Shown: one piece after another, positions 666 to 46,180 of the stretch | Numbering within the stretch: the stretch's first letter is position 1 | How the letters are laid out: each line of letters begins with the position of its first letter | DNA from: Burkholderiales bacterium | Lineage (GTDB): Bacteria; Pseudomonadota; Gammaproteobacteria; Burkholderiales; Casimicrobiaceae | DNA: 49,847 nt | NCBI GenBank assembly: GCA_025927765.1 | Contig: JAICKU010000021.1 | Coordinates: 1 to 49,847 of the forward strand | Reading direction: 5' to 3' | Notes under the pieces: generated by a model | Told to the model about the DNA's origin: nothing | What the model saw: only the letters and a program-made list of their open reading frames with translations | Database searches by the model: none | Position numbers and translations under genes: made by a program

Positions 666-1217
666 TCACGAGGGCCGGTATTCCTTCAGCAGTTCGCGCA
701 GGCGATGCCGGGCCTCGAAGAGACGCGACTTCACCGTTTTCTCGTCCACGTCGAGGATGCGCGCGATCTCCTGATAGCTGCATTCCGAAAAATGCCGCAG
801 CACGATGACGGTACGGTCCATCACCGACATGCCGCTCAACGCCCGCTCGATCGACCGCGTCCGTTCCACGACGCCCACGCGCGCCTCGGGGTCGGCACCG
901 TTGGGGTCGGGCAGCTCGATCTCGTCGTCGAGCGCCTCCTCGTGGCCGTTGCGTCGAAGCAGGTTGAGGGATTCATTGACGGCGATGCGGTAGATCCAGC
1001 TGAAGAAGCGATGATTCGCGTCGTACTCGTCGAGGTGCTCGGCAACCTTGAGAAACACATCCTGCGCCACGTCACGAGCGTCGTCGGCACTCTTCACGAT
1101 CCAGAGCGCGGCGTTGTAGATCGGCCGCTGGTAGCGGACCATCAGCGCGGTGAACGCCTCGCGGTCACCTTGCCGGTAGCGCTCGACCAGCGCCTGATCG
1201 TCGACGTCGTTGTCCAC
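666..1217 (-). CDS. ECF sigma-70 factor, RpoE-like
   Basis: This 183-residue protein has the two-domain ECF layout. Sigma-70 region 2 (about 10-85) includes ARDVAQDVFLKVAEHLDEY and the FSWIYRIAVNESLNLLRR stretch. Region 4 (about 128-180) has a helix-turn-helix, YQEIARILDVDEKTVKSRL. It would direct RNA polymerase to an envelope or stress regulon and be restrained by the adjacent anti-sigma protein. The start is GTG; family N-termini (DQALVERYRQGDREAF) begin here, so this start fits. The gene lies 58 bases after the STAS gene, so a phosphatase-STAS-sigma-anti-sigma transcript is plausible. Its regulon cannot be read from the window. Confidence 0.93.
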   Translation of the reverse strand: MDNDVDDQALVERYRQGDREAFTALMVRYQRPIYNAALWIVKSADDARDVAQDVFLKVAEHLDEYDANHRFFSWIYRIAVNESLNLLRRNGHEEALDDEIELPDPNGADPEARVGVVERTRSIERALSGMSVMDRTVIVLRHFSECSYQEIARILDVDEKTVKSRLFEARHRLRELLKEYRPS

Positions 1218-1246
1218 AATTACACGGCGGCGGGCGAAAAGTTGGT
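1217..1246 (-). promoter_or_regulatory. Two-part 30-bp motif, copy A, abutting the sigma start
   Basis: Minus strand ACCAACTTTTCG, eight bases, CGTGTAATTG, ending at the first base of the sigma GTG codon. It has the same arms and spacing as copy B inside the anti-sigma gene. If TAATT is a -10 element, transcription would begin within the first sigma codons. That fits poorly with a GTG at 1217 unless the message is leaderless or starts later. It may instead be an operator or RNA element. Confidence 0.4.
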
Positions 1247-1275
1247 TCCCGATCTCGGCAACGTGGGGCGCACGG

Positions 1276-1572
1276 TCAGCGAGGTGCGGGGTCGATCTCG
1301 AACAGCTGGTCGAAACCGGAGTACGTGAAGATGTCGCGAAGATGCGATTTGAGCCCGGTCAGCCGGAGCTTGCCGTGGCCGGCGAGCAGGCGCTTCTGCG
1401 TCTTGAGGAGCACGCCGAGGCCCGCGCTGGAAATGTAGTCGAGGCCGCTGCAATCGAGCGTCACCTCGCCGCGAACGCCGTCGAGGAACGCCTGCGCCTT
1501 CGGCGCCTCGGCGGCGTCGAGGCGCCCGGTGACCACCACGATTCCCCCCTGCCCCTGCTCGATCGCGAGCAT
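1276..1572 (-). CDS. STAS-domain anti-anti-sigma protein (SpoIIAA/RsbV type)
   Basis: This 98-residue single-domain STAS protein starts MLAIEQGQGGIVVVTGRLD. The phosphorylation loop LDYISSAGLGVLL carries the usual target serine (Ser48 or Ser49). In partner switching such a protein is phosphorylated by an RsbW-type kinase, dephosphorylated by a SpoIIE-type phosphatase, and in the free form captures the kinase. Both activities are fused in the gene immediately upstream, 11 bases away. ATG at 1572 is chosen because GGAGG lies just before it; a TTG five codons earlier overlaps that site. Confidence 0.9.
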   Translation of the reverse strand: MLAIEQGQGGIVVVTGRLDAAEAPKAQAFLDGVRGEVTLDCSGLDYISSAGLGVLLKTQKRLLAGHGKLRLTGLKSHLRDIFTYSGFDQLFEIDPAPR

Positions 1573-1583
1573 TGCCTCCTCCC

Positions 1584-3266
1584 TCAACCGCCCGCCGCCG
1601 GCCGCCTGGGCGAGATCCAGACGGTAACGCGGCTTTCGCGGCGCTCGGGCACGTAGTCGTACTGCACCCGGTCCGCCAGCTTGCGGATCAGGTGCAGCCC
1701 GAGGCCGCCCGGTGCGCGCGCCTCGATCGGCTGGCCGACGTCGACGTCGGGCGCGTCGTTCGGATCGAACGGCGCAACGTCGCGGTCGACGAGCGTGACG
1801 ACGGCCTGTCCACCCTGGCTATCGACGGCGAGCAGGATGGGTGCGGAACTGCCGCGCCCGTATTTCACCATGTTCGTGAACAATTCTTCCACTACGAAGT
1901 CGACGATGCCCAGCAAGTCGGCGCCGATGCCGAGGCGCCCGGCGGCCTCGGCGGTGAACGCGACGAGCGCGGGCAGCGCGTCGATCTGCCGGGTGAACGA
2001 CGTCAAGCGCATGCCGGCGCGGCGCTTCAGCAGCACGGCAGTGATGTCGTCCGCCTGCGGTGCGCCCTCTGCGAATGCCGTCAGCGCGGCCAGCACTTCG
2101 CCCAGGATGTCCGCCGCCGATCGATCCGGGTGCGCGGAGATCGCCTCGCACAGGCGCGCTTCGCCGAAGGCCTCACCGCGCCCGTTCTCCTGCTCGAGGA
2201 TGCCGTCGGAGACGAGCACCAGCACATCGCCCGGCGCCATCTCGAGCACGACCGGCGCGCGCGCCTTGGCGAGCGGCATCGCGCCGAGCGGAAAGCTCGT
2301 CGGCTTGAATCGATCGAAACTGCGCTCCGCGGCACGATAGCGAAGGATCGGTCCCTGCCCGCCGCTGTGGAAGCGCAGCGTGTGCGACGCCGGGTCGAGC
2401 ACGCCGATGAACGCGGTGACGAAGCGATCGTCGGCAAGCGTCTCCGCCATCCTGTTGTTGACTTCTCTGAACGCGGTGTCGAGGTCGGCGCCGAGACGAA
2501 AGGCCATGCGCAGCATTGCCTGCATCTGCGTGACCGACAGCGCGGGCGCGATGCCGTGGCCGGTGGCGTCGCCGAGCACGAGCAGCAGGTGCTCGCCGAC
2601 CTTCGCCACGTCGAACGTGTCGCCGCCGGTCAGCTCGGCCGGCTGGAAGGACGACGCAATGTCGTAGTCCACAACTTCCGGCATCGCGGCGGGCAACGTG
2701 CTCATCTGCACCACACGCGCCATCTCCAGCGACTGCCGCATGCGCTCGCCTTCGAGCAGCGCATCGGTCATGCGCACGCGCGACAGCGCCACGGCGCACT
2801 GCGCTGCGAGCGCGGTCGCGAGCGCCTCGTCGCCGTCGTCGAACACGCCGCCCTCCTTGTTCAGCACCTGCATGACACCCACGAGCACGTCGCGATGATC
2901 GACGAGGGGCAGGGTCAGCATGCAGCGCGTCCGATAGCCGGATGCCTTGTCGACGCGCGAATCGAAGCGCGCGTCCGCGTAGCAATCGGGCACGTTGATG
3001 ATCGTGCGCGAACGCGCGCAGGCGCCGACGAGACCCGACTGCCAGGGCACTCGCACGGGCGCGATGCCGGTCGCAACTTCGAGCACGAGTTCGCCTTTCG
3101 GCTCGTCGTAGAGCCACACCGAGCCGCGCTCGGCGCGCAGCACCTGCTTGGCTGCGGCGACGACCGCGGACAGCATCGCCGTCAGGTCGAACGGCGCCGC
3201 AAGCGCCTTGGTGACGTCCAGGATCGCCTGAAGGTCCTGCGCCGAGAGCGGGTGCGCGGCGGCCAT
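1584..3266 (-). CDS. GAF - SpoIIE-type phosphatase - RsbW-like ATPase fusion
   Basis: About 560 residues in three domains. A GAF sensor occupies about 8-165. A PPM/SpoIIE serine phosphatase (about 190-395) keeps the metal-binding acidic motifs GGDTFD, GDATGHG, SDGILE and DDITAVL. A C-terminal GHKL ATPase of the RsbW kind (about 415-555) has N-box EELFTNMVKYG and a GGLGLHLI lid. It therefore carries both the kinase and phosphatase halves of a partner switch acting on the STAS protein that follows. ATG at 3266 (MAAAHPLSAQDLQ) is preferred; ATGs at 3284 or 3293 are possible but crowd the divergent response-regulator start at 3292. No strong ribosome site marks any of them. Confidence 0.9.
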   Translation of the reverse strand: MAAAHPLSAQDLQAILDVTKALAAPFDLTAMLSAVVAAAKQVLRAERGSVWLYDEPKGELVLEVATGIAPVRVPWQSGLVGACARSRTIINVPDCYADARFDSRVDKASGYRTRCMLTLPLVDHRDVLVGVMQVLNKEGGVFDDGDEALATALAAQCAVALSRVRMTDALLEGERMRQSLEMARVVQMSTLPAAMPEVVDYDIASSFQPAELTGGDTFDVAKVGEHLLLVLGDATGHGIAPALSVTQMQAMLRMAFRLGADLDTAFREVNNRMAETLADDRFVTAFIGVLDPASHTLRFHSGGQGPILRYRAAERSFDRFKPTSFPLGAMPLAKARAPVVLEMAPGDVLVLVSDGILEQENGRGEAFGEARLCEAISAHPDRSAADILGEVLAALTAFAEGAPQADDITAVLLKRRAGMRLTSFTRQIDALPALVAFTAEAAGRLGIGADLLGIVDFVVEELFTNMVKYGRGSSAPILLAVDSQGGQAVVTLVDRDVAPFDPNDAPDVDVGQPIEARAPGGLGLHLIRKLADRVQYDYVPERRESRVTVWISPRRPAAGG

Positions 3267-3291
3267 GGCGGCGCAATGTAGCATTTCGCCC

Positions 3292-38312: not shown

Positions 38313-39053
38313 GTGGCCAAGCTCGACCAGCTGAAGTCGCTGCTCGATGCGGCGCGCGAACGCGTCGCGTCCGAGGCGCTCGCGCCCCCTGCGCCGGCTG
38401 CAGTCACGGACGCGCGTCATCGCGCCGTCATCCATGGCGCGCAGCACCCCAACGGCCACACCCACGAGCGCATGCATGCGCGTCCGCCGAAGCGGCCGCT
38501 CGCCACGACCAGGCACGCCGACGGCGACATCGACATCGCGCGAGCGTTCGCCGACGTGACGCGGCTGCCGCCGCGCAATCGCGCCGCGCAGACGCGCGCG
38601 CGTCCGGCGCCGCACGCGCACTCGCGCCTGCAGGACGAGCGCGAAGTGCTCGAGCTGGCGAAGTACGGCCACGAGCCTGCGCCGCATACGTGGGACATCG
38701 GCCAGGAGCTCGAAGGCGAGCAGACGTTCCTGCGCCCGGGCCTCGGCAGCGACGTGCTCGTCAAGCTGCGCCGCGCGCACTGGGTGGTGCAGGCGGTGAT
38801 CGACCTGCACGGCATGACGCAGACGGAAGCGCACGATGCGCTTGCCGACTTCCTGCTCGACGCGCGCAACCGCGGCCTGCGCTGCGTGCGCGTGATCCAC
38901 GGCAAGGGATTGACGTCCCCCAACCGCGAGCCCGTGCTGAAGGGCCGCGTGCGCCGCTGGCTCGCGCAATGGGACGACGTGCTCGCCTATTGCGAAGCAC
39001 CGGGCCATGCGGGCGGAAGCGGAGCGGTCGTCGTGCTGCTGCGCGGCCGCTGA
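38313..39053 (+). CDS. Smr-domain protein (SmrA-like)
   Basis: 246 residues from GTG at 38313 (start VAKLDQLKSLLDAARERV). A basic, low-complexity N-terminal half (His/Arg/Pro-rich) is followed by a C-terminal Smr domain (about 160-246) with DLHGMTQTEAHDAL, VIHGKGLTS and GSGAVVVLL. Smr domains of this type nick or bind nucleic acid. It is probably cotranscribed with trxB. Confidence 0.92.
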   Translation: MAKLDQLKSLLDAARERVASEALAPPAPAAVTDARHRAVIHGAQHPNGHTHERMHARPPKRPLATTRHADGDIDIARAFADVTRLPPRNRAAQTRARPAPHAHSRLQDEREVLELAKYGHEPAPHTWDIGQELEGEQTFLRPGLGSDVLVKLRRAHWVVQAVIDLHGMTQTEAHDALADFLLDARNRGLRCVRVIHGKGLTSPNREPVLKGRVRRWLAQWDDVLAYCEAPGHAGGSGAVVVLLRGR

Positions 39054-39176
39054 CGTTGCGAGCGGACAGGCGCGCACGCCCCGGATCGTTCACAATCCAC
39101 GTGCCGCCCGTTCCGCCGACGACTTGCCGGCGCTGCCGCGTAACGCCTTTCCGATCACGCCCAAGGAGACCGTTCG

Positions 39177-40043
39177 ATGCCCTCCGAGTCGCCGCGATTT
39201 TCAGATCTCGTCGCCCGCCACGAATCGCAACTGCTGGCCGACTGGTTTGCCCAGCAGAAAGCCTCGCGCGCCACACGGCTCGACCTGATCGGCGAAGCCG
39301 AGCTCGAAGACCAGTCGCGCCGGTTCCTGCGCGCGTTCCGCGCCGCGCTCGAAAGCGGTGAGCTCGACGACATCTCGCGGCCCGCGTGGGACGAGGTGCG
39401 CGACTTCCTGCAAGAAGTGTCGCGCTCGCGGGCCATGCAGGGCTTCAGGCCGAACGAGACGGCGTCGTTCGTCTTCTCGTTGAAGCAGCCGGTCTTCGCA
39501 CTGCTTCGCCAGGAGTTCGCGAAGGCCCCGGAGGAGCTCGCCGCGCAGACGTGGACGTTGTCGATGCTCCTCGACCAGCTCGGCTTGTACACGACCGAGA
39601 TCTACCAGCAGACGCGCGAGGAGATCATCGTGCGCCAGCAGCAGGAGCTCCTCGAGCTGTCCACGCCGGTCGTGCAGTTGTGGGACCGCATCCTTGCGCT
39701 GCCGCTCGTCGGCACGCTCGACAGCTCGCGCACCCAGGTGGTGATGGAGAGCCTGCTCGAGCGCATCGTGTCGAGCGGCTCCGAAATCGCGATCATCGAC
39801 ATCACCGGCGTGCCCACGGTCGACACGCTCGTCGCGCAGCATCTGCTGAAGACGATCGCCGCGACGCGACTCATGGGTGCCGACTGCATCATCAGCGGCA
39901 TCCGCCCGCAGATTGCCCAGACGATCGTGCATCTCGGCGTCGATCTCGGTACCGTCGTGACGAAGGCGACGCTCGCCGACGCGTTCGCGGTGGCGCTGAA
40001 GCGCACGCGGGACAGCCGGACCCACGTCATCGAAGGCGCCTGA
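39177..40043 (+). CDS. rsbR: Stressosome sensor RsbR-like, N-terminal sensor plus STAS
   Basis: 288 residues. Helical N-terminal sensor (about 1-150), linker helix (QQTREEIIVRQQQELLELSTPVVQLWD), then STAS (about 165-280) with IDITGVPTVDTLVAQHLLKT and GIRPQIAQTIVHLGVDL. Thr217 (VDT) and Thr249 (AQT) align with the threonines that RsbT phosphorylates in RsbR proteins. Together with RsbS it would form the stressosome shell. AAGGAG precedes the ATG. It is the first gene of the module; RsbS follows 18 bases later. Confidence 0.92.
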   Translation: MPSESPRFSDLVARHESQLLADWFAQQKASRATRLDLIGEAELEDQSRRFLRAFRAALESGELDDISRPAWDEVRDFLQEVSRSRAMQGFRPNETASFVFSLKQPVFALLRQEFAKAPEELAAQTWTLSMLLDQLGLYTTEIYQQTREEIIVRQQQELLELSTPVVQLWDRILALPLVGTLDSSRTQVVMESLLERIVSSGSEIAIIDITGVPTVDTLVAQHLLKTIAATRLMGADCIISGIRPQIAQTIVHLGVDLGTVVTKATLADAFAVALKRTRDSRTHVIEGA

Positions 40044-40061
40044 CGCACGGAGCGCTGATCC

Positions 40062-40430
40062 ATGGACCGCATTCCGATCCTCAAGATGGGCGAGTACCTG
40101 CTCGTCACGATCCAGGTCGACATGCACGACCAGCTCGCGCTGCAGTTGCAGGAAGACCTGACCGAACGCATCAGTCGCGAATCGGCCGCCGGCGTGCTGA
40201 TCGACATCTCGTCGCTCGACGTCGTCGACTCGTTCATCGGCAGGATGATCGGGAACATCGCGGCGATGGCGCGCGTGCTCGACGCCGACACCGTCGTCAC
40301 CGGGATGCGGCCCGCCGTCGCCATCACGCTCGTCGAGCTCGGCCTGTCGCTCGAAGGCGTCCACACCGCGTTGAACGTCGAGCGCGGCATGGCACTGCTC
40401 CGCGAGAAGGTGGCCGCACGGCATGCCTGA
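40062..40430 (+). CDS. rsbS: Stressosome STAS scaffold RsbS
   Basis: 122 residues, single STAS domain (MDRIPILKMGEYLLVTIQVDMHD...). Ser57 in ISSLDVVDSFIGRM corresponds to the phosphorylated serine of RsbS. Expected to hold RsbT in the stressosome until phosphorylated. The stop overlaps the rsbT start by eight bases. Confidence 0.93.
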   Translation: MDRIPILKMGEYLLVTIQVDMHDQLALQLQEDLTERISRESAAGVLIDISSLDVVDSFIGRMIGNIAAMARVLDADTVVTGMRPAVAITLVELGLSLEGVHTALNVERGMALLREKVAARHA

Positions 40431-40851
40431 TGCGCGCGCGGCCGGGGCAGCCATACAGTCCGTCACGCGCTTGCCGCTTCGCGCCTCGGAGGACGTCGTA
40501 CGTATGCGCCAGCTCGTACGCGAACGTGCGGTCGCGCTCGGCTTCGGGCTCGTCGACCAGACGAAGCTCGTCACCGCTGCGAGCGAGCTCGCACGCAACA
40601 CCCTCATCCACGGCGGAGGCGGCCATGGCGAGATTGCGGACGTGCGAAACGGAGCACGGCTCGGCCTATGCCTCGCGTTCGTCGATGAAGGTCCGGGCAT
40701 CGCCGATGTCCAGCAGGCGCTGCAGGATGGCTACACGACGGGGACCGGCCTCGGATTGGGCCTCGGCGGTGCCCGCAGGCTCGCGAGCGAATTCGCGATC
40801 GAGTCCGCGCCCGGCCGCGGCACCCGCGTGACGATCATTCGCTGGCGATGA
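40423..40851 (+). CDS. rsbT: Switch kinase RsbT-like (GHKL ATPase)
   Basis: 142 residues. ATPase motifs: N-box ASELARNTLIHGGGG, G1 DEGPGIADVQQALQDGY, G2 GTGLGLGLGGARRLASEF. It would phosphorylate RsbR and RsbS and, once released, activate the output partner. In Gram-positives that is the phosphatase RsbU; no RsbU gene with a matching N-terminal domain is seen here. It overlaps the next gene by four bases (ATGA). Confidence 0.92.
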   Translation: MPDARAAGAAIQSVTRLPLRASEDVVRMRQLVRERAVALGFGLVDQTKLVTAASELARNTLIHGGGGHGEIADVRNGARLGLCLAFVDEGPGIADVQQALQDGYTTGTGLGLGLGGARRLASEFAIESAPGRGTRVTIIRWR

Positions 40852-41843
40852 ATCGCGCGATCGACGTCCACGAACGCAGCCAGGTCGGCGCCGCTCGCCG
40901 CGAGGCCGTGCGCCTCGCGGAGTCGATCGCTGTCGGCGCGGCGACCGTCGATCGTCTCGCCCTCACGGTCACCGAAGCGGCAACGAATCTCGTCAAGCAC
41001 GCGCGCGAAGGCAGGATCCTGCTTGCGCCGCTCGTGCAGGTGGATGCGCGCGGCGTCGAAGTCATCGCCCTCGATCGCGGTCCCGGCATGGCGAACGTGG
41101 CAGCGAGCATGCGCGACGGTCACTCGACGGCGGGAAGTCCCGGCCTCGGCCTCGGCTCCATATCGCGACTCGCGAGCGGCCTCGACATCTATTCGCAGGC
41201 GGGCCACGGGACCGTCCTGCGCTTCGAGGTGTGGAACCAGGTGCGCGCGGCACGAGCGGAGGTCGTCGCCGGCGGCGTCTGCGTGCCGAAATCGGGCGAG
41301 GAAGTCAGCGGTGACGCATGGACGGCGAGCGCGTGGGAGGAAACGCATCGGCTCCTCGTCGTCGACGGCCTCGGTCACGGTCCGGATGCGGCCATGGCCG
41401 CCAACGCGGCGGTTCGCGTCGCAGGTGAGCGACCGGAGCTGGCACCCGATGCGCTCGTGTCGGCGATGCACGCCGCACTGCGCAGCACGCGCGGCGCGGC
41501 CGCGTCGGTGGCGAGCGTGTCGGCGCGCACGTCGAGCGGCATCTACGCGGGCGTCGGCAACATTCGCGGCTTCGTGCGCGAACAGGACGCCGTGCGTCAT
41601 CTCGTGTCGCACAACGGAACGCTCGGCCAGCAGGTGCGCAAGATCCAGCCGTTCGACTTCGCCTTTCCGAAGAACGCCCTCCTCGTCATGCATTCCGACG
41701 GCATCGCGTCGCACTGGAGCTTCGACGCGTATCCCGGACTCGCACGACGCCATCCGGGGGTGATCGCCGCGGTCGTCTATCGCGACCATGCGCGGGCGCG
41801 TGACGACGCGACGGTCGCGATCCTGAGCCGCGCGGTGCACTGA
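40848..41843 (+). CDS. GHKL ATPase - PP2C phosphatase fusion (RsbX-like output)
   Basis: 331 residues. N-terminal GHKL ATPase (about 1-130: TEAATNLVKHAREG, DRGPGMANV, SPGLGLGSISRLAS) is fused to a PPM phosphatase (about 140-331) with EEVSGDAW, VDGLGHGPDAAMA, SDGIASHW and RDDATVAIL. The C-terminal part matches RsbX, which resets RsbR/RsbS; the extra ATPase domain is not part of classical RsbX. One base separates it from the next gene. Confidence 0.9.
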   Translation: MNRAIDVHERSQVGAARREAVRLAESIAVGAATVDRLALTVTEAATNLVKHAREGRILLAPLVQVDARGVEVIALDRGPGMANVAASMRDGHSTAGSPGLGLGSISRLASGLDIYSQAGHGTVLRFEVWNQVRAARAEVVAGGVCVPKSGEEVSGDAWTASAWEETHRLLVVDGLGHGPDAAMAANAAVRVAGERPELAPDALVSAMHAALRSTRGAAASVASVSARTSSGIYAGVGNIRGFVREQDAVRHLVSHNGTLGQQVRKIQPFDFAFPKNALLVMHSDGIASHWSFDAYPGLARRHPGVIAAVVYRDHARARDDATVAILSRAVH

Positions 41844-41844
41844 C

Positions 41845-43617
41845 ATGATCGATATCGTCGATCGCATGCCGCTCGCCTCGGAACAGGACGTCGTGGCCGC
41901 GCGGCAGCGCGTACGCACGATCGCGGCGCTTGCCGGATTCGATGCGCAGGACCAGGCGCGCGTCGCGACTGCGGTCTCGGAGATCGCTCGCAACGCCGTA
42001 CGCTACGCGCATGGCGGCCACATCGAGTTCGCGCTCGACGGCGACACGTCGTGCCGGGCGCTCGAGGTTCGCGTCACCGACGAAGGGCCCGGCATTCGCG
42101 ATCTCCGGGCCGTCCTCGACGGCGCCTACCGATCTGGGTCCGGCACGGGCCTCGGCCTCGTCGGCGCGCGCCGGCTGATGGACCACTGCGACATCGACTC
42201 CGATGCGCGCGGGACGCGGGTGACGATGACCAAAATCCTCGCCGCGCGCCAGGACGTGCCGATGGAGGCGTGCGTCGAGCGCATACACGAGGCGCTCGCC
42301 AGGGCGCGCCTCGGCGGCCCCGTCGACGAAAGCCGCCAGCAGCAGCGCGAACTGCTGGTGGCACTCGCCGAGGCGCGCGAGCGTGGTGAGCAGCTCGTGC
42401 AGTTGAACCGCGAACTCGAGGACACGAACCGGGGCGTGGTGGCGCTCTACGCGGAGCTCGACGAAAAGGCGTTGCGGCTGCGCCAAGCCGACGAGACGAA
42501 GTCGCGCTTCCTCTCGAGCATCAGCCACGAGTTCCGCACGCCGCTCAACTCGATCCGCGCGCTCGCGGGGCTGCTGCTGGGGCGCGTCGACGGCCCGCTC
42601 AACGAAGAGCAGGCGCATCAGGTGGAGCTGATCCGCACCGCCGCGAACGACCTCGGCGAGCTCGTCGAGGATCTGCTCGACATCGGCCGAATCGAAGCCG
42701 GCAAGCTCGACATCCACGACGGCCAGTTCACGGCCGAGAATCTGTTCAGCGCACTCCGCGGCATGCTGCGGCCGCTCATGGGGGAGGGCGTCGCGCTTCG
42801 CTTCGAGGCGCCCGACGGCGTGCCGCCGATCGTCTCGGACGAAGGCAAGGTCGCGCAGATCCTGCGCAACTTCATCTCGAACGCGCTGAAGTTCACCGAG
42901 CGCGGTACGGTCAGCGTTCGCGTGCAGCTCATGCAGGGCGACATCGTCGAGTTCGTCGTCGCCGATACGGGCATCGGCATCGCGCCCGAGGACCAGGAGC
43001 GTATCTTCGAGGAATTCGTGCAGGTGCGGGGGCCGCTGCAACGACGTGCGAAGGGAAGTGGACTCGGGCTTGCGCTTTGCCGCCGACTCGCCGGGGCCCT
43101 CGGCGGCAGCGTTCGCGTCGAGAGCCGCATCGGTGAGGGATCGCGCTTCTATCTGTCGTTGCCGCGCCTCAGGACGGGCGCCGACGACGACGTGTCCGAG
43201 GATCGACCGTCGCGCAAGCGCGCCCCCATACCGGTGCTGATCGTCGAAGACGACGCGCCCGCGCGCTACGCATCGCGCCGCCTCCTGGAGGACGCAGGCT
43301 TCGTCGTCAACGAGACTGCAACGGCCGAAGCCGGTTTGCAGGCGGCCGCCGCGAGCGACGTCGCCGTCATCGTCCTCGACCTCGGCCTTCCGGACCTCGA
43401 TGGCTTCGCGATGCTCGAGCGGCTTGCGACGGCGACGCCCACGCGCGACATCCCGGTCGTCATCTGCACGTCGCGCGTGCTTTCGGGCGCCGAGCGCGAC
43501 CGGCTCGTCACGCGCGCGTTTCGTATCGTCGACAAGGGCGACATGCAGGCGCAGCTCGTCGACGCGACGAACGCGGCGCTGGCGCACGCCCTCGCGGGGC
43601 GGCCGGAGGCGGCATGA
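41845..43617 (+). CDS. Hybrid kinase: RsbT-like ATPase - HisKA - HATPase - receiver
   Basis: 590 residues. Residues 1-132 are an RsbT-like ATPase (SEIARNAVRYAHGG, DEGPGIRDL, GTGLGLVGARRLM). A coiled coil (about 140-215) leads to HisKA with His228 in SISHEFRTPLNSI. A second ATPase follows (FISNALKFTERG, DTGIGIAPED, GSGLGLALC, about 340-440). A C-terminal receiver (about 464-590) has VEDD, phospho-Asp near 512 and Lys in VDKGD. No membrane segment is seen, so input probably comes from the stressosome through the N-terminal domain. It overlaps the next gene by four bases. Confidence 0.92.
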   Translation: MIDIVDRMPLASEQDVVAARQRVRTIAALAGFDAQDQARVATAVSEIARNAVRYAHGGHIEFALDGDTSCRALEVRVTDEGPGIRDLRAVLDGAYRSGSGTGLGLVGARRLMDHCDIDSDARGTRVTMTKILAARQDVPMEACVERIHEALARARLGGPVDESRQQQRELLVALAEARERGEQLVQLNRELEDTNRGVVALYAELDEKALRLRQADETKSRFLSSISHEFRTPLNSIRALAGLLLGRVDGPLNEEQAHQVELIRTAANDLGELVEDLLDIGRIEAGKLDIHDGQFTAENLFSALRGMLRPLMGEGVALRFEAPDGVPPIVSDEGKVAQILRNFISNALKFTERGTVSVRVQLMQGDIVEFVVADTGIGIAPEDQERIFEEFVQVRGPLQRRAKGSGLGLALCRRLAGALGGSVRVESRIGEGSRFYLSLPRLRTGADDDVSEDRPSRKRAPIPVLIVEDDAPARYASRRLLEDAGFVVNETATAEAGLQAAAASDVAVIVLDLGLPDLDGFAMLERLATATPTRDIPVVICTSRVLSGAERDRLVTRAFRIVDKGDMQAQLVDATNAALAHALAGRPEAA

Positions 43618-45602
43618 AGCTAGCAAACAGCCAGACGATCCTGAACGTCGACGACAACGAGCCCGGGCTCTACGCGAAGTCGCGCATCCTGCGCCACGCG
43701 GGCTTCGAGGTGCTGGAGGCGAGCGACGGTGAGACTGCGCTCCGGCTCGCGGCCACCGCGTCGCCGCAGCTCGTGCTTCTCGATGTGCGCCTGCCCGACA
43801 TCAGCGGACTCGAAGTATGTCGCCGCATCAAGAGCGATCCCGCCACGCGGCGCCTTCCCGTGCTGCACATCTCGGCGACCCACGTCACCGAGACGGACCA
43901 GCAGCACGGGATGGAAAGCGGCGCAGACATCTACCTCGTGGAGCCGCTGGCGCCCGAGGAACTGATCACGGTCGTCCGCACGCTGCTGCGGCTGCGCCAG
44001 ACGGAAGCCGGGCTCGCCGCCAGCGAGGAACGGCTTCGGCTCGCCACCGAAAGCGCAGGCTTCGGCACCTGTGACATCGACATTCGCACCGGGAACGCGG
44101 TGTTCAGCACCGCGATGCTCGAGATCCTGGGGATCGACGCCTCACCCGGGCCCGCCAGCATGACGGCGTGGACCGACCACATTCACCCGGACGATCTCGA
44201 CGCGACGCTCGCCGCATTCGACGCTGCGCGGCGGGCGAACGCGCAGTTCCGCCATGAGCACCGGATCCTCCGCGCGGGTGATGGCTCGGAGCGGTGGATC
44301 GCGCCGACCGGCCTCTTCCACGCCGATCCGACCGGCGGGCGCACGCGCTTCATCGGCGTGATGCTCGACGTCACCGAGCGGCGCCGCGCGGACGTCGAGC
44401 GCAATGCGCTGCTTGCACGCGAGTCCGAGGCGCGGCGGACTGCCGAAGACGCCGTGCGGCTCAAGGATCAGTTCCTCGCCACGCTCTCGCACGAGTTGCG
44501 CACGCCGATGAGCGCCGTCCTCGGGTGGCTGCACCTCATGAAGAGCGGCAGGCTGACGGCGGAGCAGCAGGCGCAGGCGCTCGAGACGATCGAGCGGAAC
44601 GCCCGGCTGCAGCACCAGCTGATCAACGACCTGCTCGACGTGTCGCGGATCATCACCGGCCGCTTTCGCCTGGACCGCGATGTCGTCCACCCGTCTGTGA
44701 TCATCGAGGCGGCGGTCGACGCGATCCGCCCGCAAGCCGCGGCGCGCCGCATCGCCATCCGCACGACCTTGCCGCAGGCGATCGTCACCGTCTTCGGCGA
44801 TCCCATGCGGCTGCAGCAAGTGCTGACGAACCTGCTCGTGAACGCCATCAAGTTCTCGCCCGACGGCGCCGCGATCGACGTTTCGATGGAGCGGCGCGAC
44901 GACCGCGTCGTGATCACCGTCGCCGACCAAGGCGAAGGCATCGCTTCCAGCGCGCTGCCGTACATCTTCGAGCGCTTTCGCCAGGCCGACGGATCGATCA
45001 CGCGACGCCACGGTGGCATGGGTCTCGGCCTCGCCATCGTGCGCCACATCCTCGACGTGCACGACGGTACGGTGGCGGCGTCCAGCGATGGACCCGGTCG
45101 CGGCGCGACGTTCACCGTGACGTTGCCGGCGCGTATCGACCAGGCGGCGCGGCGCGCGGAGTCCACGCCCGCGCACGCAGCATCCCATCTCGACCAACGT
45201 CTCGCCGGCGTTCACGCGCTCGCGGTCGACGACGACGCCAACGCGGTGTCGATGCTCGCGTCGATGCTCCAACTCGGAGGTGCAAAGGTGACGACCGCCC
45301 AAAGCGTCGACGAGGCGATGTGCGCATTCGGCGCGCACCGGGACATCCGCGTCGTGCTCTCCGACATCGGGATGCCCGGGCGCGACGGCTACGACCTGAT
45401 CGCGAGCCTGAGACGCGAGTACGTGACGCGGCTCGCGAGCGTCGCGGCAATCGCCGTATCGGGCTATGCGAGCGACGAGGATCACGCGCGCGCGCTGCGC
45501 GCCGGCTTCGACGCGCATGTCGCGAAGCCGTTCGACATGAACGCGTTGTTCGACCTGATCGTTCGCCTCACCCGCGACCGTACCGCGCCGTCCGGCGACT
45601 GA
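43614..45602 (+). CDS. Hybrid kinase: receiver - PAS - HisKA - HATPase - receiver
   Basis: 662 residues, cytosolic. Receiver 1 (about 7-130) has VDDN and Asp57, but the conserved Lys of the KP motif is Glu (YLVEPLAPEE). A PAS/PAC domain (about 140-265) is followed by HisKA His293 in TLSHELRTPMSAV. The ATPase part has LTNLLVNAIKFSPDG, DQGEGIASS and GMGLGLAIV. Receiver 2 (about 535-655) has VDDD, Asp584 in LSDIGMPGRDG and Lys in VAKPFDMN. It probably receives phosphate from the preceding hybrid kinase and sends it to the lone receiver at 45607. Stop lies four bases from that convergent gene. Confidence 0.92.
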   Translation: MKLANSQTILNVDDNEPGLYAKSRILRHAGFEVLEASDGETALRLAATASPQLVLLDVRLPDISGLEVCRRIKSDPATRRLPVLHISATHVTETDQQHGMESGADIYLVEPLAPEELITVVRTLLRLRQTEAGLAASEERLRLATESAGFGTCDIDIRTGNAVFSTAMLEILGIDASPGPASMTAWTDHIHPDDLDATLAAFDAARRANAQFRHEHRILRAGDGSERWIAPTGLFHADPTGGRTRFIGVMLDVTERRRADVERNALLARESEARRTAEDAVRLKDQFLATLSHELRTPMSAVLGWLHLMKSGRLTAEQQAQALETIERNARLQHQLINDLLDVSRIITGRFRLDRDVVHPSVIIEAAVDAIRPQAAARRIAIRTTLPQAIVTVFGDPMRLQQVLTNLLVNAIKFSPDGAAIDVSMERRDDRVVITVADQGEGIASSALPYIFERFRQADGSITRRHGGMGLGLAIVRHILDVHDGTVAASSDGPGRGATFTVTLPARIDQAARRAESTPAHAASHLDQRLAGVHALAVDDDANAVSMLASMLQLGGAKVTTAQSVDEAMCAFGAHRDIRVVLSDIGMPGRDGYDLIASLRREYVTRLASVAAIAVSGYASDEDHARALRAGFDAHVAKPFDMNALFDLIVRLTRDRTAPSGD

Positions 45603-45606
45603 GCCG

Positions 45607-45996
45607 TTACGCGCGCGGCACGTGCAGGTGCTCGCAGAGCACCGCCTCGAGCCGGTCCATCGAATACGGCTTGATCAACGGAATCGCGCCGGCAGCAGCG
45701 ACGGCATCGACGATGGTCGCGTAGCCGGTCGCCAGCACGATCGGCAGCGACGAGCGGCGCTGCCGCACGTCGTGCGCGAGCTCGAGGCCGCTGCCCGACG
45801 GCATCACGACGTCGGAGAACAGGAGGTCGACGTGCGCGCCCGAATCGAGGATCGCCAGCGCTTCGTCGCGCGAGGTGGCGCGCAGCACGCTGCAGCCGAG
45901 CGCCTCGATCGCGTACGCGGCGGTCGCGAGGCTGTCAAGATCGTCGTCGACGACCAGCACGACGAACTCACGAAGCAGGGGCGCGTTCGGCGTCAT
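45607..45996 (-). CDS. Single-domain response regulator (CheY/FixJ-receiver-like)
   Basis: 129 residues, receiver only. Acidic pocket VVDDD, phospho-Asp62 in LFSDVVMPSGSG and Lys109 in PLIKPYSMDRLEAVL. It resembles the receivers found at the end of hybrid kinases and has no DNA-binding domain. It converges on the hybrid-kinase operon, so it may be its phosphate sink or output. Upstream lie two 40-bp repeats and a possible TACAAT -10 (46053-46058, minus). Confidence 0.9.
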   Translation of the reverse strand: MTPNAPLLREFVVLVVDDDLDSLATAAYAIEALGCSVLRATSRDEALAILDSGAHVDLLFSDVVMPSGSGLELAHDVRQRRSSLPIVLATGYATIVDAVAAAGAIPLIKPYSMDRLEAVLCEHLHVPRA

Positions 45997-46098
45997 TGCG
46001 AGCCTCGACGCATGCGCGGATGCTCGCGCTGCATTTGTTGACCGGGCGAACGATTGTAAGACGCGAATCGCCCGACGTTACGTACGGCGCGAAATAAT

Positions 46099-46180
46099 TG
46101 CGTCTTGGACGCGCGTACAAACACGCCCGGCAGCCCGTTCCGTCTTGGACGCGCGTCCGATACGCGCGGCAACCCGTTTC
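46099..46180. repeat. Two tandem 40-bp repeats with a short dyad, before the lone receiver gene
   Basis: Units 46101-46140 and 46141-46180 both begin with the same 16 bases, cgtcttggacgcgcgt, and both continue with a related acgcscggcarcccgtt stretch. Each start holds a dyad GTC-TTG-GAC; in the first copy the arms extend to GCGTC/GACGC. The region lies between the nitrilase stop and the receiver start, so it may be an operator pair spaced four helical turns. Confidence 0.6.

Follow-up and report, generated by a model that had tools for sequence, protein, structure and literature searches.

Described stressosome systems and a six-gene locus in a Casimicrobiaceae genome

In Bacillus subtilis and Listeria, the SigB stressosome consists of RsbR, RsbS and RsbT, is accompanied by a reset phosphatase of the RsbX type, and signals through RsbU, RsbV and RsbW to SigB. 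The locus described here lies in a 49,847-nucleotide stretch of DNA (hereafter the window) from a Burkholderiales bacterium of the family Casimicrobiaceae (NCBI GenBank assembly GCA_025927765.1, contig JAICKU010000021.1, positions 1 to 49,847, forward strand), where an operon encodes the same three proteins with homologous phosphosites and an RsbX-type phosphatase, but with that phosphatase fused to an RsbT-like domain and with histidine kinases as the likely output. We consider it probable, though with modest confidence, that this is a stressosome operon with a histidine-kinase phosphorelay output, in which partner switching acts on a kinase through a built-in RsbT domain predicted from its sequence.

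Links between stressosomes and two-component proteins in some other Gram-negatives were mentioned in the original prediction for this locus and are in print: the accessible text of PMC9237108 describes, from such bacteria, RsbR-RsbS-RsbT-RsbX (RSTX) modules that have a HisKA/REC output. The RSTX-D1-D2 locus of Vibrio vulnificus (PMC9237108, PMC10014275, as far as their accessible text goes) likewise places RsbR, RsbS, RsbT and RsbX ahead of two-component proteins and has no RsbU or SigB; unlike the locus in the window, it has a haem-globin head on RsbR, a single-domain PP2C as RsbX and an output tied to cyclic di-GMP, and the same text mentions no RsbT-like head on the kinase. A hybrid histidine kinase also serves the general stress response of Bacillus cereus (RsbK-RsbY-SigB), where, according to the available parts of PMC7522486, there is neither the energy-stress nor the environmental-stress route known from B. 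subtilis, and a receiver-PP2C protein carries the action of the kinase to RsbV and SigB.

Deinococcus radiodurans MP1 (DR_RS15570-DR_RS15595) has all six genes of the locus in identical order, an RsbT-like head on the first kinase included, and the suggestion that this set of domain fusions might be new is therefore wrong as far as the order goes. Unlike the locus in the window, that of D. radiodurans is on a plasmid, and its second kinase is a REC-HisKA-HATPase protein with no PAS and no terminal REC. We infer that the two kinases are DR_B0028 and DR_B0029 of PMC6501615, which, in the portions available, reports a presumed co-regulation of both with an operon for antisigma-factor regulation, with reference to Makarova 2001, and a raised level of DR_B0028 after vacuum exposure. 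The gene order is not new and the kinase linkage is in print; the part not found described is the RsbT-headed kinase, since no account of an RsbT-type head on a kinase appeared in the partial texts of the literature searched, with Makarova 2001 and Pane-Farre 2005 outside that search. The signalling-helix paper PMC1592074 contains RsbT, RsbW and STAS nowhere in its text, and the accessible part of PMC12143880 (eLife 2025) puts forward control through the linker in kinases headed by RsbU_N.

An RSTX set followed directly by two hybrid kinases

Six intact genes occupy positions 39177-45602 on the + strand (domain assignments and E-values from Pfam unless stated):

39177-40043, + strand: RsbR, with RsbRD_N (PF14361, 2.1e-29) and STAS (PF01740, 5.3e-13)
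40062-40430, + strand: RsbS, a single STAS domain; match to Listeria RsbS, 4.6e-32
40423-40851, + strand: RsbT, a HATPase domain; placed in the tree among module RsbT rows
40848-41843, + strand: X, a GHKL-ATPase/PP2C fusion with HATPase_c_2 (3.3e-15) and SpoIIE (8.5e-8)
41845-43617, + strand: K1, a GHKL-headed hybrid kinase with HATPase_c_2, HisKA, HATPase_c and REC
43614-45602, + strand: K2, with REC, PAS_3, HisKA, HATPase_c and REC

Intergenic distances in gene order are +18, -8, -4, +1 and -4 nt, and the original description of a gapless run from the core into an ATPase-PP2C fusion and two hybrid kinases was nearly exact. With a best Pfam domain E-value of 1e-42 and a gene order that recurs in other genomes, the locus is beyond chance. 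No 19-residue stretch in its seven proteins, counting a receiver encoded next to the operon, is strongly hydrophobic (maximum mean Kyte-Doolittle value 1.67), which makes the proposed cytosolic location of the kinases reasonable. Overlooked in the first reading was that X and K1 each open with an RsbT-like domain. Judged by sequence, the ATP sites of these two domains are intact, as is that of RsbT, and so are the phosphoacceptor histidines of K1 and K2.

The identity of the core and its reset phosphatase is strongly supported by sequence. RsbR aligns with Listeria RsbR (1.8e-34), its structure model matches the Listeria stressosome 7b0u in Foldseek (4.6e-12), and its RsbRD_N-type head is helical in that model; RsbS is the expected single-STAS protein, and RsbT is a GHKL protein with a complete ATP site (E55, N59 and D88, with intact N and G boxes). 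The predicted Thr and Ser targets are in place, at homologous phosphosites (T180 and T217 of RsbR, S57 of RsbS). Directly downstream of RsbT, X joins an RsbT-paralogue domain (TX) to an RsbX-like PP2C, which matches a solved SpoIIE-family chain (6.4e-10) and an RsbX chain (2.7e-7) and has a complete Asp set (D156, D173, D284 and D319), presumably the PP2C metal ligands. Across the 49 loci having R, S, T and X matches, the S57-equivalent is Ser in 47, and the RsbT ATP-site residues checked, using the best RsbT-type domain per locus (in L192 the head of X), are all kept except for one G-box glycine that is Ser in five.

In Foldseek, the helical head of RsbR weakly matches sensor domains of globin type (5ohf, E 0.016; 3zta, E 0.024), the second of which we take to be an RsbR sensor domain. 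Haem or oxygen sensing by RsbR was considered and rejected, there being no candidate for a proximal His: the sole His in residues 1-150 is H15, near the first helix.

The first kinase carries an RsbT-type head and a conserved helix

K1 comprises a head (TK, approximately residues 1-135; HATPase_c_2, 1.2e-20), a helical linker with ELEDTNRGVVALYAELD from residue 190, a HisKA domain with H228, a HATPase domain and a receiver with D512 and K564. In its AlphaFold model the N-terminal region is alpha/beta and residues 159-245 form a single long helix, with domain placement that is unreliable at a mean predicted local distance difference test score of 76.5 and a predicted template modelling score of 0.38.

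We placed the head in a tree of RsbT-like domains with 101 rows (46 stand-alone, 36 from X, 17 from kinases, one unassigned and one outgroup), leaving out eight near-copies (L012, L014-L018, L023 and L025) and one match below 60 bits. The 17 kinase heads form one group (support 100/98), within which the unassigned domain, from L188, falls, and a split supported at 97/93 puts the kinase heads together with all 46 stand-alone domains and leaves 34 of the 36 X heads outside. On this phylogeny the K1 head is a predicted single-origin paralogue of RsbT. The L188 gene (6383-7621) encodes a protein of 412 residues, RsbT-like domain included, without a recognised histidine-kinase core.

ATP-site residues are kept in 17 of 18 kinase heads, one glycine being Ala in three of those. 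Three residues of B. subtilis RsbT, R19, R23 and N24, are implicated in RsbU binding in the accessible text of PMC12143880. The R19-equivalent is present in all 17 kinase heads and all 33 module RsbT proteins, and the R23-equivalent is basic in 16 of the 17 heads (12 Arg, 4 Lys) and in 32 of the 33 RsbT proteins. Of the X heads, 35/36 keep R19, whereas R23 is basic in only 2/36. Judged by these alignments, kinase heads resemble RsbT at its effector-binding basic residues, while the X head appears to have mostly lost them.

Directly ahead of HisKA, the motif TN[RKQ]G[VI][VL]ALY[AS]E[LI] occurs in all 28 aligned module K1s, headed or headless, and in none of the nine other kinases of the alignment (seven from Streptomyces or Kitasatospora loci and two of split type). 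The alignment took only kinases whose core exceeds 130 bits to K1, and four headed kinases below that level were checked afterwards: the motif is kept in L066 and L176 and has a Tyr to His change in L179. These three have head and helix on cores that match K1 weakly (29-55 bits), as if a head-helix unit had been swapped between kinases. With the helix-HisKA piece as query, 48 plasmid records matched, and all 23 at no less than 58% identity also have an X match; eight of these loci were mapped, and for the remaining 14 D. radiodurans records and D. psychrotolerans the X match was the criterion. Inspection was confined to these 23, the other 25 standing at 50% identity or below. Among 274 class genomes, the genome of the window gave the sole match at E <= 1e-12.

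A further tree holds 29 kinase cores, 26 of them from modules and three as outgroup. In it the headless K1s apart from L067 form a clade with 11 members (100/99), whose sister group (95/95) is the pair of Deinococcus K1s that bear a head. L067 is a long branch outside that clade, and L180, whose weak head (44 bits) was missed in domain pick-up, was counted by hand as headed. The topology suits loss of the head in one K1 lineage with the helix retained.

The second kinase and the output of the module

K2 has an entry receiver with D57 and with E110 in the place of the switch Lys, a HisKA domain with H293, and a terminal receiver with D584 and K638. The switch Lys is usual in receiver domains. 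Among K2-type entry receivers, counted as aligned matches above 55 bits (the window and 27 other loci), the Asp is kept in 28/28 and the switch Lys is absent from 28/28 (His in 20, Glu in three, Thr in two, and Ala, Gln and Ser in one each).

The hybrid kinases lie directly downstream of RSTX, and linkage makes the case for kinases as the output of the module strong. The original prediction had the output probably passing through a phosphorelay; with the stressosome core linked both physically and evolutionarily to two hybrid histidine kinases, that is the likely output.

Distribution across bacteria

To follow the gene order across bacteria, we surveyed named genomes, plasmid records and genomes of the same class and phylum. 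Of 17 loci found with the RsbT query in named genomes, four have R-S-T-X-K1-K2 (Pseudomonas luteola, P. asuensis and two Rhodopila metagenome-assembled genomes), one has T-X-K1-K2 at a contig edge (R. globiformis), and nine have R-S-T-X without these kinases directly behind (Streptomyces, Kitasatospora and Amycolatopsis); one of the remainder differs (Trinickia) and two are without the module. Plasmid records with all six genes come from D. radiodurans MP1, another Deinococcus, Caballeronia, two Variovorax and Xanthomonas vasicola, and plasmids of Sphingomonas and Paraburkholderia encode one kinase with a head but lack K2. Behind R-S-T-X-K1, Nonomuraea and Embleya have a sixth protein that begins with a receiver, and a single-sequence search found no kinase core in it. 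The sixth protein of Embleya (L212, 5961-7637) has a weak PP2C match (22 bits), and a phosphatase may occupy the place of K2 there.

An X profile matched 40 of 398 phylum genomes at E <= 1e-20, the genome of the window included. The six-gene order is present in 14 of 20 phylum loci (L173-175, L177, L178, L180-187 and L190), a figure that is no unbiased rate, as the 20 were drawn from the 39 other matching genomes and were mostly the best-scoring; L176 and L179 have one kinase, and L188, L189, L191 and L192 differ. At class level 85 of 369 genomes had X matches at E <= 0.001, mostly weak, and at 14 of 19 places examined there, X stands beside an RsbR-like gene with no RsbT (L071-L084).

Taken together, the module order recurs in both Pseudomonadota and Deinococcota, and Actinomycetota have close variants of it. 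The search for the six-gene order, proposed with the original prediction, thus found the linkage conserved, the opposite of the lack of conserved linkage that had been named as telling against it.

Two other arrangements were seen in these surveys. In L071-L084 and L089 an ATPase-PP2C fusion adjoins an RsbR-like protein; no RsbT is recognised there, and most of these loci lack RsbS as well. L085, L086, L087 and L191 have a split variant, in which RsbR, RsbS and RsbT are joined by another RsbT-like gene and a PP2C, both stand-alone, and a kinase gene follows.

Probable acquisition of the module and a probably resident receiver

Two further features define the surroundings of the operon:

39054-45606, strand unassigned: segment absent from same-genus genomes, from the smr stop codon to the receiver stop codon
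45607-45996, - strand: lone receiver, a single REC domain (Pfam) with D62 and K109

X has no match in any of 21 other genomes of the genus or in any of 15 searched from other genera of the family. At the nitrilase gene, nine of 15 genus loci are without the module, with smr followed by nitrilase in eight and by the receiver and nitrilase in one (genome G021); L206 has only an smr fragment (BLASTN), L193 and L198 have other neighbours, and L195, L199 and L204 lie at contig edges with no smr. In G021 the stop codons of smr and the receiver are 21 bp apart, and in the window the module lies between the same two stops. The module was probably acquired horizontally and inserted between two older genes, to judge from these comparisons. 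The guanine-plus-cytosine content of the insert is similar to that of its flanks, so either the transfer happened long ago or the donor resembled this genome in composition. Repeats of at least 16 nt within 38950-46100, shorter ones not having been sought, are short or imperfect, and none brackets the insert.

The receiver was originally taken as a partner converging on the kinases. Because it lies between smr and nitrilase in G021 without the module, it is probably a resident neighbour and not part of the module, and we rejected it as the module output; a later functional link may have arisen. It adjoins the nitrilase gene in G021 (L201) and also in G014 (L204, contig edge).

Proposed mechanism and alternative explanations

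In the mechanism we propose, RsbR and RsbS would form a stressosome to which RsbT is bound in unstressed cells, probably together with K1, held by its RsbT-like head. Stress at the RsbR heads would lead RsbT to phosphorylate T180 and T217 of RsbR and S57 of RsbS, which would free the RsbT-type domains, and the K1 head would then drive its own conserved signalling helix and switch the kinase on. Phosphate would pass from H228 to the K1 receiver, on to K2 and then to a response regulator encoded elsewhere, an order that we infer, and X, recruited by its RsbT-like head, would strip the phosphates and reset the complex. In lineages with a headless K1, free RsbT would work on the same helix in trans. 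The role of the K1 head as a docking and activating element is suggested by its phylogeny, conserved residues and position. The fuller version, in which the head is an RsbT paralogue of single descent that docks K1 and drives its helix, the head-helix cassette is portable, headless lineages use free RsbT, and the K2 entry receiver is a dock or sink instead of a switch, is offered tentatively, as a possibility short of likely.

Several observations weigh against the proposed mechanism. The operon has no HPt or DNA-binding output, and the accessible text of PMC9237108 reports that no positive interaction was obtained between Vibrio RsbT and D1, the downstream kinase. In a Foldseek search with the K1 model, the best 50 matches, by their titles and spans, cover kinase cores and not the head, leaving the identity of the head to Pfam and the tree, which itself has few columns and a single, very distant outgroup row. 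N24, the third RsbU-binding residue, is not conserved in RsbT, kinase heads or X heads; Rhodopila heads are about five residues shorter ahead of the second G box; the head of L062, on a Caballeronia plasmid, has a degenerate ATP site though its K1 core is close to that of the window; and L068, the fourth of the headed kinases checked separately, lacks the helix motif. The T180-equivalent of RsbR is Thr at 36 of the 49 loci (Ala 4, Ser 3, Val 3, Leu 2, Ile 1) and the T217-equivalent is Thr at 38 and Ser at 11, the T217 and S57 positions being more constant than that of T180. Moreover, the module is rare near home, being present at one (L070) of the 19 class places other than the window.

The original prediction raised the question whether RsbT release stimulates the kinase at 41845, a question that needs reframing, as K1 carries an RsbT-like domain of its own. 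In one alternative, freed RsbT would bind the K1 linker as it binds RsbU, and the head would be only a dimerising element or an autoinhibitory competitor. RsbT activates RsbU by ordering its linker, according to the available text of PMC12143880, and the linker motif persists in headless K1s, whose only RsbT route is in trans. RsbU_N, the known RsbT-binding device, has no Pfam match in K1 or K2 at E up to 0.01, however, an absence that tells against this alternative and also against our own proposal, and action in trans alone leaves the ATP site in 17 of 18 heads and the RsbT effector residues unexplained. We regard this alternative as rather unlikely.

K1 and K2 might instead be ordinary sensor kinases that travel with an RSTX cassette, the head being a generic GHKL relic. 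Histidine kinases often gain domains, K2 has its own PAS input, one head (that of L062) is degenerate and one lineage is headless, all of which would fit; yet the heads form a single-origin group with affinity to RsbT, the gene order is kept between phyla, and the closest helix-HisKA pieces are in plasmid records that also have X. This explanation seems improbable to us.

A second partner-switching set is present in the window:

666-3269, - strand: consecutive genes for a GAF-SpoIIE-HATPase_c_2 (GAF-PP2C-RsbW) fusion, an RsbV-type STAS protein and an ECF sigma factor

The statement that RsbU, RsbV/RsbW and sigma-B are missing stands for the locus itself, where RsbU-RsbV-RsbW-SigB is not downstream, but not for the window, given the RsbU/RsbW-type fusion, RsbV-type protein and sigma factor of this set. 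No protein of the genome exceeds the family cut-off for SigB, SigF or SigG. It is very improbable that the stressosome signals through this set with the kinases as a side branch: its fusion, which shares the contig with the module at a distance of about 36 kb, has the sole SpoIIE domain found in the genome besides that of X (two matches in total), but it has a GAF input, no RsbU_N and no receiver, and it occurs at full length, with 61-73% identity, in 13 of the 21 other genus genomes, all without X, and thus works without the module. Being conserved where X is absent, the set is probably an independent and older system.

Implications

How stressosomes signal where SigB is lacking has yet to be settled, and an RsbT-type domain fused to a kinase offers a direct and testable physical link between Ser/Thr partner switching and a two-component phosphorelay. 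The same operon in D. radiodurans provides a tractable laboratory organism for it. If the proposed mechanism is true, Ser/Thr partner switching would control a histidine phosphorelay directly, and K1 would be a self-contained partner-switching kinase.

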